64,000 nt of DNA from an uncultured Balneola sp. (GCA_913058495.1 CAJXQC010000008.1:1-64000); one strand, 5' to 3'. Shown: positions 26,269-35,024, numbered from the stretch's first letter. Made by a program: numbers and translations. Notes: a model not told the origin generated them from the letters alone.

Positions 26269-27198
26269 ATGAAACACAATAAAGGCTTACATCACATTTC
26301 AGTTTTAGCAGGAGACCCTGCGGTGAACTACGACTTTTATGTCAAAAAATTAGGAATGAGAATGGTTAAAAGGTCGGTCAATCAGGACGATCCTTCTACA
26401 TACCATCTTTTTTACGGAAATGAAGCTGCTAATCCCGGATCAAGTATAACTTTCTTTCCATGGCCACGGGCTCATAAAGGAATTCCCGGAAGCGGAGAGT
26501 CCGTAAATGTTGCTTTTCAAGTACCGGAAGGAACAGAAGACTTTTGGAAAGAAAGGTTGAATGCTCATAATATTGAACACTCAGATATCTTTGAAGTATT
26601 TGGAAACCCGGCAATTCGTTTTCAAGATCCGGACGGACTGGAATTAGATTTAATATTTTCCGGTCTACCCAAAGAAAAAGTGAGTGCTTTTGAGACCACT
26701 GTTTCAACAGAATCGTCGATTCAAGGCTTTTGGTCAACACGCCTGAAAGTAGCTGATCCTGATGGAACTTCAGAGATACTAAAAGATGTGTTCAAATTTG
26801 AAGAGAAGGAATCAGAAGGAAAGCTAGCCAGATTTTCTACAGATGCTCAGATAGGAAGCAATGTGATCATAGAAGAATCGGATGATGAGCAAGGAAAAGG
26901 CGGAAGGGGAATCGTGCATCATGTTGCCTTTCGTGCTAAAGATGAAGAAGAATTAGCGGAACTCAGAGAAAAAGTGGTGGAGAAAGGTTTACATCCAAGT
27001 CCGATTATAGACCGCCACTGGTTTAAGTCGGTATACTTTCGTGAGCCAAGTGGAGTTTTGTTCGAAATAGCATCCGATGGTCCTGGCTATGCAGTTGATG
27101 AAGATTTTGAGGAACTCGGAGAAACGTTGATTCTTCCACCTTGGTTAGAGCCAAGAAGAAAAATGATCGAAGATAATCTGCCTGATTTAGGTATCTAA
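26269..27198 (+). CDS. mhqO: Ring-cleaving VOC dioxygenase, MhqO-like
   Basis: 310 residues from the ATG at 26269, which is preceded by AAGGAGG; a longer upstream frame has no such site. Two tandem vicinal-oxygen-chelate modules: 'GLHHISVLAGDPAVNYDFYVKKLGM' (core HHIS...FYV) and 'GIVHHVAFRAKDEEEL', with a C-terminal 'FREPSGVLFEIASDGPGY' carrying the last metal ligand. This layout matches the MhqO/MhqE family, glyoxalase-type dioxygenases for hydroquinone or catechol-like compounds. It forms an operon with the mhqD-like hydrolase 11 bases downstream, as in the Bacillus MhqR regulon. Confidence 0.85.
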   Translation: MKHNKGLHHISVLAGDPAVNYDFYVKKLGMRMVKRSVNQDDPSTYHLFYGNEAANPGSSITFFPWPRAHKGIPGSGESVNVAFQVPEGTEDFWKERLNAHNIEHSDIFEVFGNPAIRFQDPDGLELDLIFSGLPKEKVSAFETTVSTESSIQGFWSTRLKVADPDGTSEILKDVFKFEEKESEGKLARFSTDAQIGSNVIIEESDDEQGKGGRGIVHHVAFRAKDEEELAELREKVVEKGLHPSPIIDRHWFKSVYFREPSGVLFEIASDGPGYAVDEDFEELGETLILPPWLEPRRKMIEDNLPDLGI

Positions 27199-27209
27199 AA
27201 GATAGTGTA

Positions 27210-27893
27210 ATGGAATTATTCAGAGTTGATAAAGAAAAACCGTTTAAAGGACCTCATCAGAATCAGAAAACTGCTTCCGGAGGAGTTGATCTTAGTGATG
27301 CAAAGTTTGCCATGATCATGATTCACGGACGTGGTGCTAGCGCAGAAAGCATTATCGGGCTTGGCAACGAATTTGAAACAAGTGATAAAATTACTTTCAT
27401 GGCGCCTCAGGCAAGTGGATTTACTTGGTATCCGTATTCATTTCTTGCTCCGACAGAGAAGAATCAGCCGGGCTTAAATTCAGGCTTACAAGCTATTGCT
27501 GATTTGATCGTAGAAATAAAAAAAGAAGGTATTTCTAAAGAAAACATCTTCCTCCTCGGATTTTCTCAGGGAGCTTGTCTTGCGACAGAATTTGTTGCCA
27601 GACATCCGGGAAAATACGCCGGAGTAATTGGATTGAGTGGAGGCTTGATCGGCGATAAAATTGATCCGTCAATCTATTCCGGAGATTTAGAAGAAACACC
27701 TGTATTTCTTGGCTGTAGCGATATAGATCCTCATATCCCAAAAGAAAGAGTAGATGAAACAGAGGCAGTCTTTGAAAAATTGGGCGGAAATGTCACAAAA
27801 AAGATCTATCCGGGGATGGGGCACCTTGTCAACGAGGATGAGATTCAGCATATTCAGCAGTTGCTGAATTCAAAATTAAAGATTCAAGATTAA
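27210..27893 (+). CDS. mhqD: Alpha/beta hydrolase, MhqD/phospholipase-carboxylesterase type
   Basis: 227 residues. The nucleophile elbow 'GFSQGACLA' carries Ser119, with Asp171/173 in 'GCSDIDPH' and His205 in 'GMGHLVN'. This is the phospholipase/carboxylesterase subfamily. In Bacillus, mhqD is a paralogue partner of the ring-cleaving dioxygenase in the quinone-stress response; here it directly follows mhqO. A role in hydrolysing quinone-derived adducts or esters is inferred. Its stop lies inside the downstream hairpin. Confidence 0.85.
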   Translation: MELFRVDKEKPFKGPHQNQKTASGGVDLSDAKFAMIMIHGRGASAESIIGLGNEFETSDKITFMAPQASGFTWYPYSFLAPTEKNQPGLNSGLQAIADLIVEIKKEGISKENIFLLGFSQGACLATEFVARHPGKYAGVIGLSGGLIGDKIDPSIYSGDLEETPVFLGCSDIDPHIPKERVDETEAVFEKLGGNVTKKIYPGMGHLVNEDEIQHIQQLLNSKLKIQD

Positions 27894-27925
27894 AAATTTG
27901 CTCTGAGCAATTTTTAATCTTGAAT
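27882..27925 (+). terminator. Long AT-rich hairpin after mhqD
   Basis: ATTCAAGATTAAAAATTTGCTC (27882-27903) pairs with GAGCAATTTTTAATCTTGAAT (27905-27925), about 21 base pairs with one unpaired T and a tiny loop. It covers the mhqD stop codon and lies 22 bases before the Kef gene, so it probably ends the mhq transcript. It resembles the palindrome at 31692. Confidence 0.6.
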
Positions 27926-27947
27926 TTTAAATCTCTAATTATTTTTA

Positions 27948-29525
27948 ATGGAAATTCTCTGGCTTGGTCTTGCCTACGTTTTTGGTATGGTAGTTAAACA
28001 ACTAAAACTGCCTCCTTTAATCGGTTATCTTATTGCAGGTGTGATACTGTCAGCTTTTGGTGTGTCAGATGAAAATGGTCTACTCCACACGATCGGGCAC
28101 TATGGCGTTATTTTTCTTCTGTTCACAGTTGGGTTACATCTAAGGATAAAGAATATTATCCGCCCGGAAGTGTTTGGTGTCGGAAGCATTCATCTTGTGA
28201 TCAGCGCCGGGATCTTTTTGGTAATTGCAATGGCCTTTGGTTTTTCTGCAATTGAAGGCTTGATCATAGGGATACTCCTCGGATTTTCAAGTACAGTTTT
28301 AGCCGCAAAAACACTGGAAGCTCGCGGTGAACTGAATGCGTTTCATGCCCGTGTTTCAATTGGTATTTTAATTGTTCAGGACTTGGTGGCAATCACTGTT
28401 TTAGCTTTAACCGGTGGTGGAATACCTTCTGTTTGGAGTTTCGGACTACTATTATTGCCGCTTCTTAGACCTCTTCTCTTTAAATTACTTACATCAAGCG
28501 GACATGAAGATCTTCAGCTACTTTATGGACTCTTGCTTGCCATGGGTGGAGCCGCTTTGTTTGAGGTACTTGGGCTTTCCAGCGAGTTAGGAGCGCTTGT
28601 AGCCGGAGCGCTACTTTCAGGAACTCATGAATCGGATGAGCTTTCGGAAAAATTGTGGGGACTTAAAGAAGCATTTCTGGTTGGCTTCTTTTTGGAAGTG
28701 GGGCTAGCAGGCTTGCCTAATATGAATGATCTTCTCTTTGCAGGGGCTTTATTTGCTGTTCTCCCTATCAAAGCAGTTTTGTTTTTCTTTCTGCTGATAC
28801 TGTTCAAGCTTCGTTCAAGAAATTCATTTATGGTGACCTTAACATTAACTTCCTTTAGCGAGTTTACACTAATCGCAGGTATGGTAGCTGCATCATCCGG
28901 CTTTATTCCGGAATCCACGATCATAGTTTTCGCACTATTAATAGCGGTTTCGTACACAGTGAATGCTCCTTTATCTGCCAAATCGAACAGCTTATGGAAA
29001 AGGTTTGAGCATAAACTCATTCCGTTAGAAAGAAATGTCAAACATCCGGGACAGCAGGTGGTGAGTTTGGGTGGAGCCGAATATCTTGTAGTTGGAATGG
29101 GACAGGCCGGATCTTCTGCTTACGACTATTTAAAGGAAAGAGAATACAGAGTAACAGGAATGGATTCTGATCCTGCTCAGATCGAATATAATCTGGGAAA
29201 GAAACGTCGGGTAGTTTATGGCGATGCTCAGGATGCTGAGTTGTGGGAAAACATAGACCTATCAAGCGTCAAGGCAATTATGCTTGCAATGCCTTATGCT
29301 GATACAAAAATTCAGGCAACTAAAATGCTTCGTGAAAATAAATTTACTGAAGATATCTACGCGCTTACTATGAGGGATGAAGAGCATCAGGCGCTTAAAG
29401 AAGCGGGAGCAAATGCAGTTTGTTTACCGCTGATACAAGCCGGAAGAAAACTTGCTGAAATAAGCATAAGTGATGAAGTTGATGGTTCAATGTCTCTGAA
29501 TTTTGAAATGAATTCTTTTGAATGA
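27948..29525 (+). CDS. Kef-type cation/proton antiporter with RCK_N domain
   Basis: 525 residues. The first ~370 residues hold about 12 membrane helices in the CPA2 (KefB/YbaL) pattern, with 'PPLIGYLIAGVILSAFG', 'GILIVQDLVAITVLAL' and 'FSEFTLIAGMVA'. The C-terminal part (about 375-510) is a TrkA-N domain with a nucleotide-binding 'YLVVGMGQAGSSAYDYL' and the acidic 'GMDSDPAQIEYN'. It is likely a K+ or Na+/H+ antiporter of the inner membrane, gated by a nucleotide or redox ligand. First gene of the cluster that runs to 33435; the next gene overlaps its end by 8 bases. Confidence 0.9.
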   Translation: MEILWLGLAYVFGMVVKQLKLPPLIGYLIAGVILSAFGVSDENGLLHTIGHYGVIFLLFTVGLHLRIKNIIRPEVFGVGSIHLVISAGIFLVIAMAFGFSAIEGLIIGILLGFSSTVLAAKTLEARGELNAFHARVSIGILIVQDLVAITVLALTGGGIPSVWSFGLLLLPLLRPLLFKLLTSSGHEDLQLLYGLLLAMGGAALFEVLGLSSELGALVAGALLSGTHESDELSEKLWGLKEAFLVGFFLEVGLAGLPNMNDLLFAGALFAVLPIKAVLFFFLLILFKLRSRNSFMVTLTLTSFSEFTLIAGMVAASSGFIPESTIIVFALLIAVSYTVNAPLSAKSNSLWKRFEHKLIPLERNVKHPGQQVVSLGGAEYLVVGMGQAGSSAYDYLKEREYRVTGMDSDPAQIEYNLGKKRRVVYGDAQDAELWENIDLSSVKAIMLAMPYADTKIQATKMLRENKFTEDIYALTMRDEEHQALKEAGANAVCLPLIQAGRKLAEISISDEVDGSMSLNFEMNSFE

Positions 29526-30042
29526 TTACAGCTTAAATATCAGAAATGAAGAATATCCGAAAGGAAACCTTTCTTCACAGAATATTCTGATCGAATATGG
29601 AGATTATGAATGTCCGTATAGCCGGTTGGGATATAGATATGTTCAAAAAATCTTGAAAGAGGATAAAGATTTGAAATTCATATTCCGTCATTTTCCTATT
29701 AAGAAAAAGCACCCACATGCTGAAATGTGTGCTGAAGCAGCTTTATGTGCTGGTGATCAGGGAAAATTCTGGGAAATGCATGATCTTATGTTTGCAGACA
29801 ATCAGAATCTGAGCAGAGAAAGACTGGAAGAATTTGCTCAGGAACTCGATCTTGATGGAAGAAAGTTTCATGTAGATCTGGATTCACACAGTTTTTTAAG
29901 TTGGGTTCAGAAAGACTTCAGAAGCGGCGTTAAAAACCGCGTAAATGATACTCCGACTTTTTTTATGAACGAAACCAAGTATGAAGGTAAATTAGCGTAC
30001 AAAGAGTTGTTGGCTTTTATCACGAATCATAAATTAAGCTGA
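29518..30042 (+). CDS. DsbA-like thioredoxin-fold protein with a CPYS motif
   Basis: 174 residues, start TTG at 29518 (the only start in frame before the fold). 'IEYGDYECPYSRLGY' is the active-site turn, with Cys32 kept but Ser35 in place of the second Cys. 'VNDTPTFFM' gives the cis-proline loop (Pro146). The family (Thioredoxin_4/DsbA-like) is often tied to Na+/H+ antiporters. A CPYS site can form mixed disulfides, bind glutathione or resolve sulfenic acids, but cannot cycle as a classic dithiol oxidase. There is no signal peptide, so it is probably cytosolic. It overlaps the Kef gene. Confidence 0.8.
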   Translation: MNDYSLNIRNEEYPKGNLSSQNILIEYGDYECPYSRLGYRYVQKILKEDKDLKFIFRHFPIKKKHPHAEMCAEAALCAGDQGKFWEMHDLMFADNQNLSRERLEEFAQELDLDGRKFHVDLDSHSFLSWVQKDFRSGVKNRVNDTPTFFMNETKYEGKLAYKELLAFITNHKLS

Positions 30043-30043
30043 T

Positions 30044-30295
30044 ATGTCCTGTGAACATGAAAATATGATCAAAATTACAGAGCCTACATCTCATGAATGT
30101 GAAACTTGTGTTCAGCAAGGAGATGAATGGGTTCATTTGCGAATGTGCATGACTTGCGGTTATGTGGGCTGTTGTGATTCTTCAAAGAACAAGCACGCCA
30201 GAAAGCACTATATGAGAAATGATCATCCACTAATAAGATCAGTTGAGCCCGGCGAAGACTGGAGATATTGTTTCATCGATAAGGAAATGCTATGA
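30044..30295 (+). CDS. UBP-type zinc finger protein
   Basis: 83 residues that are almost entirely a UBP-type (ubiquitin carboxyl-terminal hydrolase-like) zinc finger: Cys3 and His5, Cys19 and Cys22, Cys35 and Cys38, Cys43, His51, His55 and His61, with Trp29 in the 'GDEWVHLRMCMTCGYVGCCD' segment (core W...C..CG...C). In eukaryotes this fold binds the ubiquitin C-terminus; bacterial members have no assigned role. It is one base after the DsbA-like gene and overlaps the next gene by 4 bases, so all three are made together. No ubiquitin-like genes are nearby. Confidence 0.85.
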   Translation: MSCEHENMIKITEPTSHECETCVQQGDEWVHLRMCMTCGYVGCCDSSKNKHARKHYMRNDHPLIRSVEPGEDWRYCFIDKEML

Positions 30296-31692
30296 GCACA
30301 TTAAAAGAATTTGCAGTTCAAAAATTACACAGTTTCCCGCAGTTCGATAATGTACCTGTGGATCAACTCGATTGGCTGGTAGAAAACTCCAGAATCTGTA
30401 CCTACATGACAGATGAAAGGATCATGGAGCCGGGTACAGAAATTGATAAGATGTTCATCATACTGGATGGTAGAATTAGAATTCAGCTTCCAAGAGGAAG
30501 TTCGTTTACAAGCATAGGAGATTTTGTGACCGGTGATATTTCCGGGCGGCTTCCTTTTTCCAGAATGCAATCTACTTTAGCCCATTTAGTAGTGATGGAA
30601 GACACTACCATTCTTGAAACTCATGAAGATCTCTTTGTAGAGATCACAAAAAAGTACGAGCTGATCGAAGCTTTTGTTCACAGTTTATCGGATAGAATTC
30701 GAAGTTTTACCTCTCAGCAGCAGCAAAATGAAAAGCTGGTAGCACTGGGGAAACTTTCTGCGGGATTGGCTCATGAATTGAATAACCCGGCGTCGGCATT
30801 GGTTCGCGGAGCTACTGAGCTAAAGAAACGCTTGTCCCAAACGCCGGATAAGTTCAAATCTGTGATGAATATTAAGCTTACAAACGATCAGATAGACGCG
30901 GTGAATGATCTGGTGTTTAAAAAAGCGGGAAGCGGATCTTCAAATCAACAATCTTTAATGGAAAGAACAGCGCTTGAAGATGAATTAACAGATTGGATGG
31001 AAGATCATGGTGTAGAAGAGGGCTTTGAATATTCTGAGACATTTGCGGAGTTTTGCTTTAATACTAAAGATCTTGAATTTGTTTCTTCTCATGTAGAAGA
31101 CGAATATTTGGCTGCAGTTTTAGGATGGATCGAGGATGTTCTTACTACAGAGAAAATGGTGGAAGAGATCGAAGACTCTGCCCGGCGAATTTCAGATCTG
31201 GTTTCTTCAGTTAAGACCTATTCTCATATGGACAGAGGAACGGATAAAGAAGTGGTGGAACTTAAAAAAGTCCTAAAGAGCACAGTTACGATGCTCAATC
31301 ACAAAGCAAAGCAGAAGAAAGTAGAGATAGAACTGAATATCCCTTCTGATCTATCTGAATTCTATGGATATGTAAGCGAACTAAACCAGGTATGGACGAA
31401 CTTGCTGGACAACGCAATTGACGCTGTGCCTCAAGACGGAAAGATCGAGGTAAAAGCTGAAGAGAAGAATAAAAATCTGTATCTGTTTTTTAAAGATAAC
31501 GGGAGCGGAATTTCGGAGGATGTGCTACCAAAAATATTCGATCCTTTTTTTACAACTAAAGATGTTGGTGAAGGAACCGGATTAGGCTTAGATGTAGTTC
31601 ATAAGATTATTGAAAAACACGGAGCCTCTATCGATGTAGAATCAAAACCGGGACAAACAACCTTTGAACTTTGCTTTCCATTAAATAATTAA
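30292..31692 (+). CDS. Histidine kinase with an N-terminal cyclic-nucleotide-binding-type domain
   Basis: 466 residues, no membrane segment. Residues ~20-130 form a CRP/cNMP-binding-like sensor domain ('[22 protein letters not shown]', core PG...I..G). A HisKA helix carries His161 in '[19 protein letters not shown]', and the HATPase part has '[15 protein letters not shown]', 'FKDNGSGI' and '[12 protein letters not shown]'. It is a cytoplasmic sensor, and its obvious partner is the receiver domain of the next gene. It overlaps the zinc-finger gene by 4 bases. Confidence 0.9.
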
Positions 31693-31737
31693 ATTAAGAA
31701 TGAAAAAATTCAAAATTGATTCTTTTCATTCTTAATT
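31692..31737. repeat. AT-rich palindrome between kinase and receiver-reductase genes
   Basis: AATTAAGAATGAAAA (31692-31706) and TTTTCATTCTTAATT (31723-31737) are perfect 15-base complements with a 16-base spacer. A second, overlapping inverted pair (AATTCAAAAT at 31707 and ATTTTGAATT further on) lies in the same 76-base gap. A run of T follows the right arm, so it may reduce read-through to the next gene. It is similar in style to the hairpin at 27882. Confidence 0.55.
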
Positions 31738-31767
31738 TTTCATTTTGAATTCCATAATTCCGAAGGA

Positions 31768-33435
31768 ATGAAGAAGCCTATAATTTTTACGATCGATGAT
31801 GATGCTCCGGTGCTTAGAGCCATTACTAGAGACCTGCGTAGCAATTACAGAAAGGATTATAGGGTGATGAGCACTCAATCTCCGAAAGAAGCATTGGAGA
31901 GTCTGCCCGAACTAAAAAAGCAAGGCGAAACTGTTGCGCTATTTCTGTCAGACCAACGAATGCCCGATATGATTGGGGTAGATTTCCTGGAGAAAGCAAG
32001 AGCATATTTTCCTGAAGCAAAGCGGGTTTTGTTAACGGCTTATTCTGATACTGACGCTGCAATTCGGGCAATTAATGAAGTTCAGCTGGATTATTATCTA
32101 TTGAAACCATGGGATCCGCCCGAAGAAAAATTGTATCCGGTTTTGGATGATCTGCTGGATGAGTGGCAAGCTAATTTCCGTCCTGATTTCACAGGAATTC
32201 GGTTAGTCGGATATCAGTATTCTCCGAAATCACATACAGTTAAAGACTATCTTTCCGGAAACCTGATTCCTTACCGTTGGTTAGATATTGAGGAAAAAGC
32301 AAAAGCCGCTGAATTATTAGAAGAGAATCAAATTGACCAAAAAGATCTGCCTGCCATATTTTTTGAGGATGGTGAATTCCTTACTAATCCTAGCCCGATT
32401 CAAATTGCTAACAAGCTTGGGAAAAATCCATCTGCTTCAGAAAATGTATACGATGTAGTAATTGTAGGTGCTGGTCCGGCAGGATTAGCGGCTGCGGTTT
32501 ACGGTGGCTCGGAAGGATTGAAAACATTGCTCATTGAAAAGAGAGCTCCCGGAGGACAAGCCGGAACTAGTTCCCGAATCGAGAATTACCTTGGTTTTCC
32601 AAAAGGTTTGAGTGGTTCTGATTTGGCAAGACGTGCAATTACACAAGCCACAAGATTCGGCGTCGAATTTTTATCCCCACAAGAGGTCATTGATATCAAG
32701 CTGAATGATCAGTATAAAACGGTTTGCTTGGCGGATGGAAGTGAGATCAATGCAAAAGCGGTAATTGTAACTACAGGCGTTAATTACAGAAAACTGGAAA
32801 GCAAAGGGATTTCAGATTTTACCGGAGCGGGAATTTACTACGGCGCTGCAATGACTGAAGCACACGCGTTTAAAGACAAACAAGTCTACATCGTTGGAGG
32901 AGGTAATTCAGCCGGACAAGCAGCCATGTATTTGTCTACATTTGCAAAAAAAGTGTACATCACCATTCGGAAAGATTCGCTGGTTTCAAGTATGTCTTCT
33001 TATTTGATTGATCAGATAAACAGGACCGAAAACATAGAGCTTCTTGGAAACAGAGAAATTGTAGAGGCTTCCGGGAATGGTCATCTGCAAGGACTGAAAC
33101 TCCTGAATAACGTGGATGAATCAGAATTTGAAGTAGAAGCAGATGGATTATTCATCTTTATCGGTGCAAAACCTTATACCGATTGGATCCACGATAATGT
33201 GATCAAAAATGAAAGAGGTTTTATAGAGACCGGAAGAGATCTTCAGCGATATGATGACTATTCCAAAGTCTGGAAATTGGAACGTCAGCCTTATTTACTG
33301 GAATCTTGTGCACCCGGAATTTTTGCCGCCGGGGATGTCCGTGCTGGAGCGATGAACAGAGTCGCATCAGCTGTTGGGGAAGGCTCCATGGCAATAAAAT
33401 ACGTGCATGAATATTTAGCGGATTCGAATTTGTGA
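31768..33435 (+). CDS. Response regulator fused to a thioredoxin-reductase-like flavoprotein
   Basis: 555 residues. A receiver domain (1-125) has Asp62 in 'LSDQRMP' and the Lys of 'LLKPWDPP'. A linker of ~80 residues ('GIRLVGYQYSPKSHTVKDYL' region) looks like a glutaredoxin/thioredoxin-type fold without cysteines. From ~227 it is a thioredoxin-reductase fold: FAD motif 'VIVGAGPAGLAAA' (~229-241), 'GGQAGTSSRIENYLGFP', NADPH motif 'VYIVGGGNSAGQAA', and final 'GIFAAGDVRAGAMNRVASAVGEGS' (GD core). The dithiol is missing: where CxxC is expected the protein reads 'GAGIYYGAAMTEA'. It is probably an NAD(P)H-dependent flavoprotein switched by phosphorylation from the neighbouring kinase. Confidence 0.9.
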   Translation: MKKPIIFTIDDDAPVLRAITRDLRSNYRKDYRVMSTQSPKEALESLPELKKQGETVALFLSDQRMPDMIGVDFLEKARAYFPEAKRVLLTAYSDTDAAIRAINEVQLDYYLLKPWDPPEEKLYPVLDDLLDEWQANFRPDFTGIRLVGYQYSPKSHTVKDYLSGNLIPYRWLDIEEKAKAAELLEENQIDQKDLPAIFFEDGEFLTNPSPIQIANKLGKNPSASENVYDVVIVGAGPAGLAAAVYGGSEGLKTLLIEKRAPGGQAGTSSRIENYLGFPKGLSGSDLARRAITQATRFGVEFLSPQEVIDIKLNDQYKTVCLADGSEINAKAVIVTTGVNYRKLESKGISDFTGAGIYYGAAMTEAHAFKDKQVYIVGGGNSAGQAAMYLSTFAKKVYITIRKDSLVSSMSSYLIDQINRTENIELLGNREIVEASGNGHLQGLKLLNNVDESEFEVEADGLFIFIGAKPYTDWIHDNVIKNERGFIETGRDLQRYDDYSKVWKLERQPYLLESCAPGIFAAGDVRAGAMNRVASAVGEGSMAIKYVHEYLADSNL

Positions 33436-33446
33436 TTATGGTAAAT

Positions 33447-33809
33447 ATGAGATTGAATAAAAGTCTGATCTTAAGCTTATTTATTGCATTTGCATTTACA
33501 AATCAGGTGTATTGTCAAGAAGAAGGTCAGAAAGAACAAGCATTTAAAAAAGTACAAAATCTTGTAGAGTTTAAAGATACGGTTTCAAAGATCGACTCAT
33601 TAAAACAATCAGGTCATAAAATAGATGTTAGCGTTGTAGCCATTTGGGAATCTATTTTACCTGAGGATTCTACAAGTTCTATCGCACTATACTATCTCAA
33701 CGAGGTTTTATTTAACAAGATTGAAAATCCTATTTATCTGATTAAGTTCGATAAAATAAAGAATGAGATTGTCTCCGTTGAAGGGGTAGGTCAAATAAGT
33801 ATCGAATAA
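33447..33809 (+). CDS. Small secreted protein, unknown function
   Basis: About 120 residues from the ATG at 33447 (MRLNKSLILSLFIAFAF...), a signal peptide with a predicted cut after VYCQ. The mature part is short, with Lys/Glu-rich helical segments, and I recognise no domain. Alternative starts at 33438 or a GTG overlapping the end of the previous gene are possible. It follows the receiver-reductase gene directly and may be part of its transcript, although it is the first exported product in the run. Confidence 0.5.
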   Translation: MRLNKSLILSLFIAFAFTNQVYCQEEGQKEQAFKKVQNLVEFKDTVSKIDSLKQSGHKIDVSVVAIWESILPEDSTSSIALYYLNEVLFNKIENPIYLIKFDKIKNEIVSVEGVGQISIE

Positions 33810-33854: not shown

Positions 33855-34417
33855 GTGTCAGACAGATTCAAAAACAAATATCGAAATGAAACCACTCGAT
33901 TAAGGTCCTGGGATTATGGGTGGAATGGGTCTTATTTCGTAACGATTTGTACGAAGAATAGAGAGAGGTTTTTTGGAGAGATAAATAATGATGAAATGTT
34001 TCTGTCTGAAATTGGAAAAATCGCAAACCAATGTTGGAAAGAGATCCCGGATCATTTTCCATTTGTGAAATTAGGAGAATTTGTTGTGATGCCTAATCAC
34101 GTTCATTGCATTATCGTAATCGATAAAAAAGACGATGGCAGGTTTTCAAAATCTTATGTAGGGACGCAAAATCTTGCGTCCCTACATGCATCGAAACAGA
34201 ATTCATTAAACAAATTTGGTCCTCAAACTAAAATCTTGGTTCCATTATTCGTGGTTTTAAAATCGGTGTCACAAAGAAGGCGAGAAAGATCAGAACTGAC
34301 TTCCAATGGCAAGCCAGATACTACGATCATATAATTCGTGATCAGGAGTCCTTTAATAATATCTCTGAATACATACGAAATAACCCATCTCAATGGAAAG
34401 AAGACAGATTCTATTAA
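33855..34417 (+). pseudogene. REP-associated tyrosine transposase (RAYT, IS200-like), frameshifted
   Basis: The first frame (GTG at 33855) gives the N-terminal half: 'RSWDYGWNGSYFVTICTKNR' and the HUH pair in 'VMPNHVHCIIVI'. From about 34234 the reading continues one base out of phase as LGSIIRGFKIGVTKKARK... 'FQWQARYYDHIIRD', holding the catalytic tyrosine, and ends 'NNPSQWKEDRFY' at 34417. A single lost A in the run at 34230-34233 explains the shift. RAYT proteins nick and mobilise REP hairpins. The catalytic pieces are otherwise well preserved, so the frameshift is recent, or a homopolymer sequencing error. Confidence 0.85.
34156..34187. repeat. Perfect REP-like hairpin inside the RAYT gene
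   Basis: ATGTAGGGACGCAA (34156-34169), loop AATC, TTGCGTCCCTACAT (34174-34187): a flawless 14-base-pair stem with a 4-base loop. It lies within the variable region of the transposase between the HUH motif and the catalytic tyrosine. It reads through in frame as SYVGTQNLASLHAS. The 'GTAGGGACGCAA' core is a REP sequence I know from many genomes, associated with RAYT proteins. Confidence 0.8.
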
Positions 34418-34424
34418 ACATCGA

Positions 34425-35024
34425 TTATTCTAGTGAACTCAGTTGCTTCTCCAACTCCTTTCCCCGCAAATCCTTTGCTATCACAAAACCTGAAGAATCA
34501 ATCAAAAAAGTAGTCGGGGTAGAATAAACGCCATATTTGGTAGCAACAGGAGAATCCACTCCTTTCAGGTCAGAAACTTGTGGCCATGTAGTACCATCTT
34601 TCTCAACTGCCTTTTCCCAGTTCGTTTTACTGCGATCCAGAGAAACGGCAAGGATTTCAAACCCCTTATTTTTGTAATCAGGATAGATCTCTTTGAGGAG
34701 TTTATTTTCGGCTCGACAGGTTGGACACCAGGAGGCCCAGAATGTCAACAGAACGGTCTTTCCTTCAAAATCAGACAGCGAAATTTGATCACCATCTAAA
34801 TCCGGAAGAGTAAAATCCGGGGCTTTGCTATCAACAGTTATCTCCTCGTAATTAGATACAAGTTCTTCCTTTTTCCCATCTATAGCTTGGTGTTCCAACG
34901 TGCCGTTAAACACTGAGTAAACGGTGAAAAACAAAGGATATTCAGGGCTTCTGAAATAGAAAGGAAATGCGACAGCGTACATTACTATCAGGCCTGCAGG
35001 AACCCACCACCATTTAAATTTCAT
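34425..35024 (-). CDS. TlpA/ResA-like membrane-anchored thioredoxin
   Basis: 199 residues. One N-terminal membrane anchor (WWWVPAGLIVMYAVAFPFYF) leads to a thioredoxin-fold domain from ~62 ('APDFTLPDLDGDQISLSDFEGK'). The active site 'WASWCPTCRAE' has Cys100 and Cys103, and 'GVYSTPTTFLID' holds the cis-proline. It probably reduces periplasmic disulfides, for example in cytochrome c maturation, but no such genes are adjacent. It converges with the RAYT remnant. Confidence 0.88.
   Translation of the reverse strand: MKFKWWWVPAGLIVMYAVAFPFYFRSPEYPLFFTVYSVFNGTLEHQAIDGKKEELVSNYEEITVDSKAPDFTLPDLDGDQISLSDFEGKTVLLTFWASWCPTCRAENKLLKEIYPDYKNKGFEILAVSLDRSKTNWEKAVEKDGTTWPQVSDLKGVDSPVATKYGVYSTPTTFLIDSSGFVIAKDLRGKELEKQLSSLE

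Follow-up and report, generated by a model that had tools for sequence, protein, structure and literature searches.

The 64,000-nucleotide stretch of DNA that was analyzed (the window; GCA_913058495.1 CAJXQC010000008.1:1-64000), from an uncultured Balneola sp. with a 3.4-Mb genome, carries a cluster of seven codirectional genes. They encode an MhqO-type dioxygenase, an esterase, a Kef-like antiporter, a DsbA-like protein, a UBP zinc finger, a histidine kinase with a cyclic nucleoside monophosphate (cNMP)-binding-type domain, and a flavoprotein that combines a receiver with a thioredoxin reductase (TrxR)-like domain. Gene content and the residues kept or lost by the encoded proteins suggest an electrophile/quinone-defense operon with Kef as the effector, UBP as a partner of Kef, and an NAD(P)H flavoprotein under the control of the kinase, an assignment that, as a whole, has in our judgment an even chance of being correct.

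In the front part of such an operon, the dioxygenase and the esterase would detoxify quinone-like electrophiles, the putative stress, and Kef would lower the cytoplasmic pH by K+/H+ exchange, with UBP acting as its regulatory partner through a predicted contact. The cytosolic DsbA-like protein, which has a CPYS motif, would be an optional thiol-handling helper. The back part would be an independent two-component pair, in which the soluble kinase, responding to a putative input, would phosphorylate the receiver of the NAD(P)H-binding flavoprotein; the output would be a flavoenzyme or a flavin sensor and not transcription. When both parts sit in one operon, the flavoprotein probably links the Kef-UBP complex to the state of NAD(P)H, in a way comparable to the action of the quinone reductase KefF on KefC.

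Conservation and modular organization of the cluster

Six-frame open reading frame (ORF) calling combined with Pfam and NCBIfam scans bore out the five plus-strand ORFs (27948-33435, from Kef to the receiver-flavoprotein) that a preliminary description of this DNA had delimited as the cluster. That description missed two leading genes, the stronger of two palindromes (27879-27928), and the gene fusions of Kef-like antiporters with UBP. The dioxygenase and esterase genes lead the cluster and are conserved with the rest, so that the cluster comprises seven genes, not five.

In a presence/absence survey of 59 genomes, including that of the window, the receiver-flavoprotein was found in 13 genomes and the kinase in exactly the same 13 (Fisher P = 2e-13, a statistic that ignores kinship), and the two genes adjoined each other in every carrier examined. 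UBP was detected in 12/59 genomes and Kef, at an E value of 1e-80, in 30/59. The order Kef-(DsbA-like)-(UBP)-kinase-receiver was kept in 12 relatives with the receiver-flavoprotein, beside the window, with the dioxygenase and esterase genes upstream of Kef in most relatives. The genes therefore form a conserved group, as had been proposed; the scattering in close relatives that would have accompanied a chance linkage did not occur, and chance linkage was rejected. The DsbA-like gene was rejected as a core part of the cluster, having no match in loci L027, L028, L029, and L031, and UBP was rejected as a strict requirement, since L023 and L032 have only a non-coding gap, without a UBP frame, between the DsbA-like and kinase genes.

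Because genomes lacking the kinase pair display smaller modules, the Balneolaceae cluster is nested and modular, comprising dioxygenase-esterase-Kef (module 1), DsbA-like plus UBP (module 2), and kinase plus receiver-flavoprotein (module 3). Module 1, alone or with module 2, was found without module 3, and module 3 was found without module 1 in many phyla. Loci devoid of the kinase pair contained dioxygenase-esterase-Kef (L169, L170, and L172), esterase-Kef (L171, L173, and L179), dioxygenase-esterase-Kef-DsbA-UBP (L168), or dioxygenase-Kef-UBP (L190), and Kef occurred without the kinase in G005, G014, G314, and other genomes. One Balneolaceae genome harbors a second cluster (L192, G217:C6, 3115-9610), in which a receiver-less TrxR-like gene is followed by Kef, a DsbA-like gene, and a UBP frame containing a single TGA stop.

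A wider survey of 296 genomes of the phylum revealed the receiver-flavoprotein family in 44, UBP in 30, and both in 27 (Fisher P = 2e-23, and 2e-13 outside the family of the window, in a test that ignores phylogeny). Relatives of the receiver-flavoprotein are encoded by at least 591 stretches of genome contigs; none was detected in the viral contigs searched. Among 80 loci from species genomes (Bacteroidota, Cyanobacteriota, Chloroflexi, Acidobacteriota, Deinococcota, and Actinobacteriota), the receiver-flavoprotein had a linked kinase of the window family in 67 and a linked UBP gene in 22, and clustering of 1290 neighboring ORFs of these loci disclosed no other widespread partner. An MsrA-like gene was seen near the kinase and receiver-flavoprotein genes in 3 loci, and egtB/egtD-type genes for ergothioneine synthesis were seen beside them in L086, L090, L101, L104, and L061, with Pfam confirmation for L101.

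The leading genes, the antiporter, and the UBP finger

MhqO-type enzymes remove quinones, and Kef-type efflux, by K+/H+ exchange, acidifies the cytoplasm and protects against electrophiles, as established in Escherichia coli. The first gene of the cluster (26269-27198, plus strand) encodes a ring-cleaving dioxygenase of the VOC fold that matches Bacillus subtilis MhqO (PDB 3oaj) over nearly the full length (residues 2 to 304; phmmer E value, 1.9e-70). The following gene (27210-27893, plus strand), also located between the dioxygenase and Kef in relatives, encodes an alpha/beta hydrolase of the phospholipase/carboxylesterase family (Abhydrolase_2, 5.4e-25; PDB 4h0c, E value of 7.6e-54) that would be MhqD-like, as far as its family and gene neighbor indicate. 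In Staphylococcus aureus, the dioxygenase gene mhqE and the phospholipase/carboxylesterase gene mhqD share an operon that quinones induce, and MhqE-type dioxygenases cleave the adducts formed between quinones and low-molecular-weight thiols such as bacillithiol (PMC6798810); the source genome of the window encodes BshC, a protein of bacillithiol synthesis.

The association of these genes with Kef also bears on a role in ion and pH homeostasis, according to which Kef would serve under alkaline or salt stress, the kinase pair would sense ions, and the quinone genes would be incidental. Such a role would suit antiporters that swap K+ for H+ and recalls KefB of the tLST island, which protects E. 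coli at alkaline pH with chlorine present (PMC8290217). However, KefB_GI gives no protection at alkaline pH alone (PMC8290217, a review), and dioxygenase, esterase, and Kef stay together across genera even without the rest of the cluster; we give this explanation little credence. Membership of the window Kef in tLST was itself unsupported, since a search of plasmids at an E value of 1e-20 recovered its relatives on only 4, none of them enterobacterial.

The antiporter gene (27948-29525, plus strand) encodes a CPA2 K+/H+ antiporter of 525 residues with a cytosolic KTN/RCK domain (Na_H_Exchanger, 4.4e-36; TrkA_N, 7.3e-19). Alignment with KefC (PDB 8bxg; E value, 6.6e-22; residues 3 to 489) covers both the CPA2 membrane domain and the KTN/RCK domain, and the transport Asp of KefC is kept (D156). 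In KefC, the glutathione response involves residues R416, R516, and N551, and full activity depends on KefF, which is homologous to flavin quinone oxidoreductases (PMC2920069). In the window Kef, R416 is replaced by D and R516 by L, N551 would lie beyond the C terminus, and the protein stops short of the position of the C-terminal ligand arm of KefC. The three residues are kept in none of the 8 members of its clade, the window Kef and 7 relatives, which form a group separate from E. coli KefB and KefC (support, 100/100). Judging from these residues, glutathione would not gate the window Kef as it does the E. coli proteins. Elsewhere, L071 (8351-10684) encodes an antiporter with TrkA_N and TrkA_C, whose C-terminal stretch appears glutaredoxin-like by eye, with no Pfam match, and which is divergent from a kinase and receiver-flavoprotein.

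The UBP gene (30044-30295, plus strand) encodes a single-domain zinc finger of 83 residues (zf-UBP, 1.2e-12, above the cut-off) that belongs to a Kef-associated subtype in the tree. A profile built from the alignment matched PDB 2ida with an E value of 3.6e-37, and residues C3, H5, C19, C22, C35, C38, C43, C44, H51, H55, and H61 are invariant or nearly so, in agreement with the zinc-ligand pattern. The 296 genomes of the phylum contain 31 UBP genes, of which 21 are adjacent or fused to an antiporter gene (17 in a Kef operon and 4 fused), 4 neighbor a TrxR-like gene, and the other 6 lack both kinds of gene over about 5 kb. The fused frames encode 688 to 719 residues, with UBP at the C terminus of the antiporter. 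Pfam confirmed that a single chain carries Na_H_Exchanger, TrkA_N, and zf-UBP in L070 and L072 (class of the window), L159 (Acidobacteriota), and L163 and L167 (Deinococcus plasmids), so that fusions exist outside the Balneolaceae in Rhodothermia, Acidobacteriota, and Deinococcus. In L070, L072, and L075, a fusion, the kinase, and the receiver-flavoprotein are encoded in one directional run, with differing gene orders. The fused antiporters form a CPA2 group apart from the window Kef and E. coli KefB/KefC (100/99 and 100/100), and the window UBP groups with an antiporter-fused finger (96/90). The retention of UBP with different antiporter subfamilies argues for a functional contact between Kef and UBP, and this partnership, taken alone, is probable.

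A more specific proposal is that UBP is a regulatory subunit of Kef that replaces the ligand arm of KefC and couples the antiporter to a phosphorelay with a disulfide-less NAD(P)H flavoprotein as the regulator, the whole being a phosphorylation-controlled K+ efflux system for the electrophile response. We put this forward tentatively and consider it rather doubtful in its full form. It would, if true, provide the first function for bacterial UBP fingers and for receiver-TrxR (REC-TrxR) proteins. UBP might instead act like eukaryotic UBP fingers, which bind ubiquitin, by recognizing a di-glycine-like tag at the C terminus of a protein and recruiting the tagged protein to Kef or to the flavoprotein. 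The UBP profile does match the fingers of HDAC6 and USP proteins (E values of about 1e-6 to 1e-2), and a conserved W accompanies the zinc ligands, but ORF clustering revealed no ubiquitin-like or tagging gene as a recurrent neighbor, and we regard tag recognition as very improbable.

The kinase, the receiver-flavoprotein, and the DsbA-like protein

The kinase gene (30292-31692, plus strand) encodes a soluble protein of 466 residues with a degenerate cNMP-fold domain and an ATPase domain (cNMP_binding, 3.4e-7; HATPase_c, 2.5e-26). H161, N165, and P166 were found in 37/37 aligned sequences, the H161-E162-x-x-N165-P166 box being invariant. In the cNMP domain, aligned by eye, the position set against the Glu of the binding cassette is D82, with E in only 6/37 sequences, and the Arg (R91) is present in 29/37. 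A helical insertion of roughly 85 to 115 residues, present across phyla, separates the two DHp helices (about residues 184 to 267; window positions 30820-31190) and is possibly a second sensor domain. Outside the insertion, the structural model (pLDDT, 87.3) retrieved ordinary kinases with Foldseek, such as ZraS and HK853.

The receiver-flavoprotein gene (31768-33435, plus strand) encodes 555 residues comprising a receiver, a glutaredoxin-like middle domain, and a TrxR-like domain (Response_reg, 1.9e-14; Pyr_redox_2, 3e-36); the closest named match found is in a metagenome-assembled genome of Balneola (87% identity). Receiver residues D10, D11, D62, T90, and K113 are invariant in 36/36 sequences. 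Because the AlphaFold model (pLDDT, 86.8) keeps the TrxR fold (PDB 5vt3; Z score of 34.7 and root mean square deviation of 2.2 over 308 aligned residues), binding of FAD and NAD(P)H is likely. The TIGR01292 score was 247 bits versus a cut-off of 343. An invariant YYG stands where the CxxC motif of TrxR would be, CxxC is absent from 35/36 aligned sequences, the window protein contains 2 Cys in its 555 residues, and SPxS takes the place of CPxC in the glutaredoxin-like domain. The source genome encodes elsewhere a normal TrxB with CATC. These substitutions make disulfide turnover by the flavoprotein unlikely.

Phosphorylation of the flavoprotein by the kinase, which the preliminary description had proposed, is plausible in view of the invariant H161, the receiver residues, and linkage in 67/80 loci; the pairing of the two proteins, considered by itself, is probable. 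A cNMP domain is carried by the TrxR-like protein itself in plasmids of Actinomycetota and Pseudomonadota and by the kinase here, indicating that input domains move between kinase and flavoprotein. Actinobacterial plasmids L162 (1-7948), L181 (64-8988), and L182 (1-7936) carry dnaK-grpE-dnaJ-cbpM-clpB-trxA-UBP-cNMP/TrxR-like in one directional run, a chaperone cluster whose last two genes encode UBP and a flavoprotein likewise devoid of CxxC.

The DsbA-like gene (29518-30042, plus strand) starts with TTG inside the Kef gene and encodes a Thioredoxin_4-fold protein of 174 residues (5.6e-22). No signal peptide was seen in this ORF, and the active site was CPYS or CPFS in the 12/12 relatives read, none of which had CxxC. 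By its sequence, it appears to be a cytosolic monothiol protein and not a DsbA-type exported thiol oxidase. The earlier idea that the kinase receives information on redox state from Kef and the thiol protein found no support: neither is a needed input, because Kef occurs without the kinase, in most phyla the kinase pair is not accompanied by Kef, and several otherwise complete clusters lack the DsbA-like gene. A thiol-disulfide relay, in which the DsbA-like and TrxR-like proteins would exchange electrons and inform the kinase, could account for the presence of thioredoxin-like and TrxR-like folds in one operon, and a cNMP-TrxR protein of similar architecture was reported to reduce thioredoxin and 5,5'-dithiobis(2-nitrobenzoic acid) (DTNB) (PMC6544261). 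However, with no CxxC in the reductase or in the glutaredoxin-like domain and CPYS in the DsbA-like protein, ordinary dithiol exchange is unavailable through these proteins, and the genome has its normal TrxB; the relay is thus weakened and, in our estimate, improbable.

Several observations weigh against electrophile/quinone defense as the role of the cluster. In groups other than Balneolaceae and Rhodothermia, Kef or a dioxygenase is seldom encoded near the kinase-flavoprotein pair, so that the primary job of the pair may lie elsewhere. A Rubrobacteraceae locus (L130) does have a dioxygenase gene and an esterase gene directly before the receiver-flavoprotein and three kinases, but this is a single weak case in which the dioxygenase is truncated. 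If the cNMP-TrxR protein mentioned above (ATII-TrxR) belongs to the same CxxC-less family, the window flavoprotein may reduce disulfides after all. Finally, UBP and a cNMP-TrxR-like protein end the chaperone run in Rhodococcus, Nocardia, and Streptomyces plasmids, which points to a broader stress. The last observation also favors the alternative of a general energy or proteostasis stress system, in which kinase, flavoprotein, and UBP would sense the state of NAD(P)H or of nucleotides, with Kef and the quinone genes as ordinary members of the same stress regulon. The cNMP-fold domain on the kinase or the flavoprotein is in keeping with this alternative, as is a universal stress protein gene near the pair in a Streptomyces locus (L165) and, by eye, in L130. 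Against it, the partner in Balneolaceae and Rhodothermia is specifically Kef, even fused with UBP, and the quinone genes accompany Kef also where the kinase pair is absent. We consider a general stress role rather unlikely, though the likeliest of the alternatives to electrophile/quinone defense.

Junctions, flanking genes, and comparison with known systems

The preliminary description had reported overlaps between adjacent genes. Those of 8 bases (Kef/DsbA-like) and 4 bases (UBP/kinase) are present; the DsbA-like and UBP genes lie 1 base apart and do not overlap. The kinase-receiver gap contains the announced AT-rich palindrome (31690-31739; inverted repeat; RNA fold z score, -3.5) and measures 75 bases (31693-31767), not 76. 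Since this gap varies from 0 to about 170 bases among relatives, the palindrome was rejected as a conserved regulatory part. The AT-rich palindrome of the esterase-Kef junction, the stronger one, is also an inverted repeat (z score, -5.0). Promoter and terminator scans gave no excess above shuffled sequences. Downstream, a small secreted-looking protein identified by ORF calling (33432-33809, plus strand; 4-base overlap with the receiver gene) has counterparts only in the clusters of the closest relatives (L021, L022, and L024) and is probably a non-core part. Inspection by eye identified a RAYT-like (REP-associated) transposase-type ORF (33855-34334, with a palindrome at 34155-34188), a similar ORF following the cluster in L082, and a TlpA/ResA-like membrane-anchored thioredoxin with WCPTC (34425-35024, minus strand), comparable ORFs lying downstream in L050 and L082. 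In two close relatives, L022 (4263-4349) and L023 (4384-4470), the final 29 codons of the receiver-flavoprotein gene recur as a stray copy about 1 kb downstream of that gene.

None of the component families is new, and the REC-TrxR combination already appears by name in the literature (PMC5847659). In the open-access papers searched, we found no published function for the cluster, no functional study of the kinase and receiver-flavoprotein pair, no role for bacterial UBP zinc fingers, no paper joining a UBP-type finger with a response regulator and thioredoxin-disulfide reductase or with an antiporter, and no paper on Kef-UBP fusions or the lost CxxC. The fusions and the lost motif pose testable questions, namely, whether a finger gates an ion antiporter and what job a phosphorylated, disulfide-less TrxR fold performs. 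Current annotation is misleading, since proteins are named thioredoxin-disulfide reductase here without the disulfide. The kinase and receiver-flavoprotein pair is widespread, and its kinase would signal to an enzyme instead of DNA; a zinc finger is an unusual partner for a transporter.

The mhqRED and MhqR regulons of S. aureus and B. subtilis resemble the front of the cluster in that an MhqO-type dioxygenase adjoins a phospholipase/carboxylesterase-family hydrolase; in contrast, the window cluster has no MarR repressor, its hydrolase precedes Kef, and extra modules are attached. The tLST, or locus of heat resistance (trx plus kefB), similarly groups Kef and a thioredoxin-fold protein in a locus for oxidant resistance, but no UBP or kinase pair has been described in it. 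The finger of PDB 2ida is of the same family as the window UBP and is a stand-alone hypothetical protein without assigned function. The "Mycobacterium-like" REC-TrxR regulators of a published census (PMC5847659) share the fusion of a receiver to a TrxR-like domain; the combination is only named there, and what is described here in addition is the loss of CxxC, the glutaredoxin-like domain in the middle, the constant pairing with a kinase, and the links to UBP and Kef. By its description, ATII-TrxR (PMC6544261) is also similar, with about 550 residues in which a regulatory domain precedes an FAD/NAD(P) TrxR-like domain; the former is a cNMP domain where the window protein has a receiver. It was reported to catalyze NADPH- or NADH-dependent reduction of thioredoxin, and its predicted redox cysteines are far apart (Cys206-Cys223 and Cys376-Cys467), with no mention of CxxC. 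The KefF-KefC and KefG-KefB systems of E. coli, in which electrophiles activate K+ efflux, share with the window a CPA2 antiporter with a KTN domain and an adjoining gene for a soluble redox-type partner, and kefF and kefC overlap by 8 bases, as do the Kef and DsbA-like genes. They differ in that, in the window, a UBP finger takes the place of a quinone reductase as the proposed partner and a two-component pair is attached.

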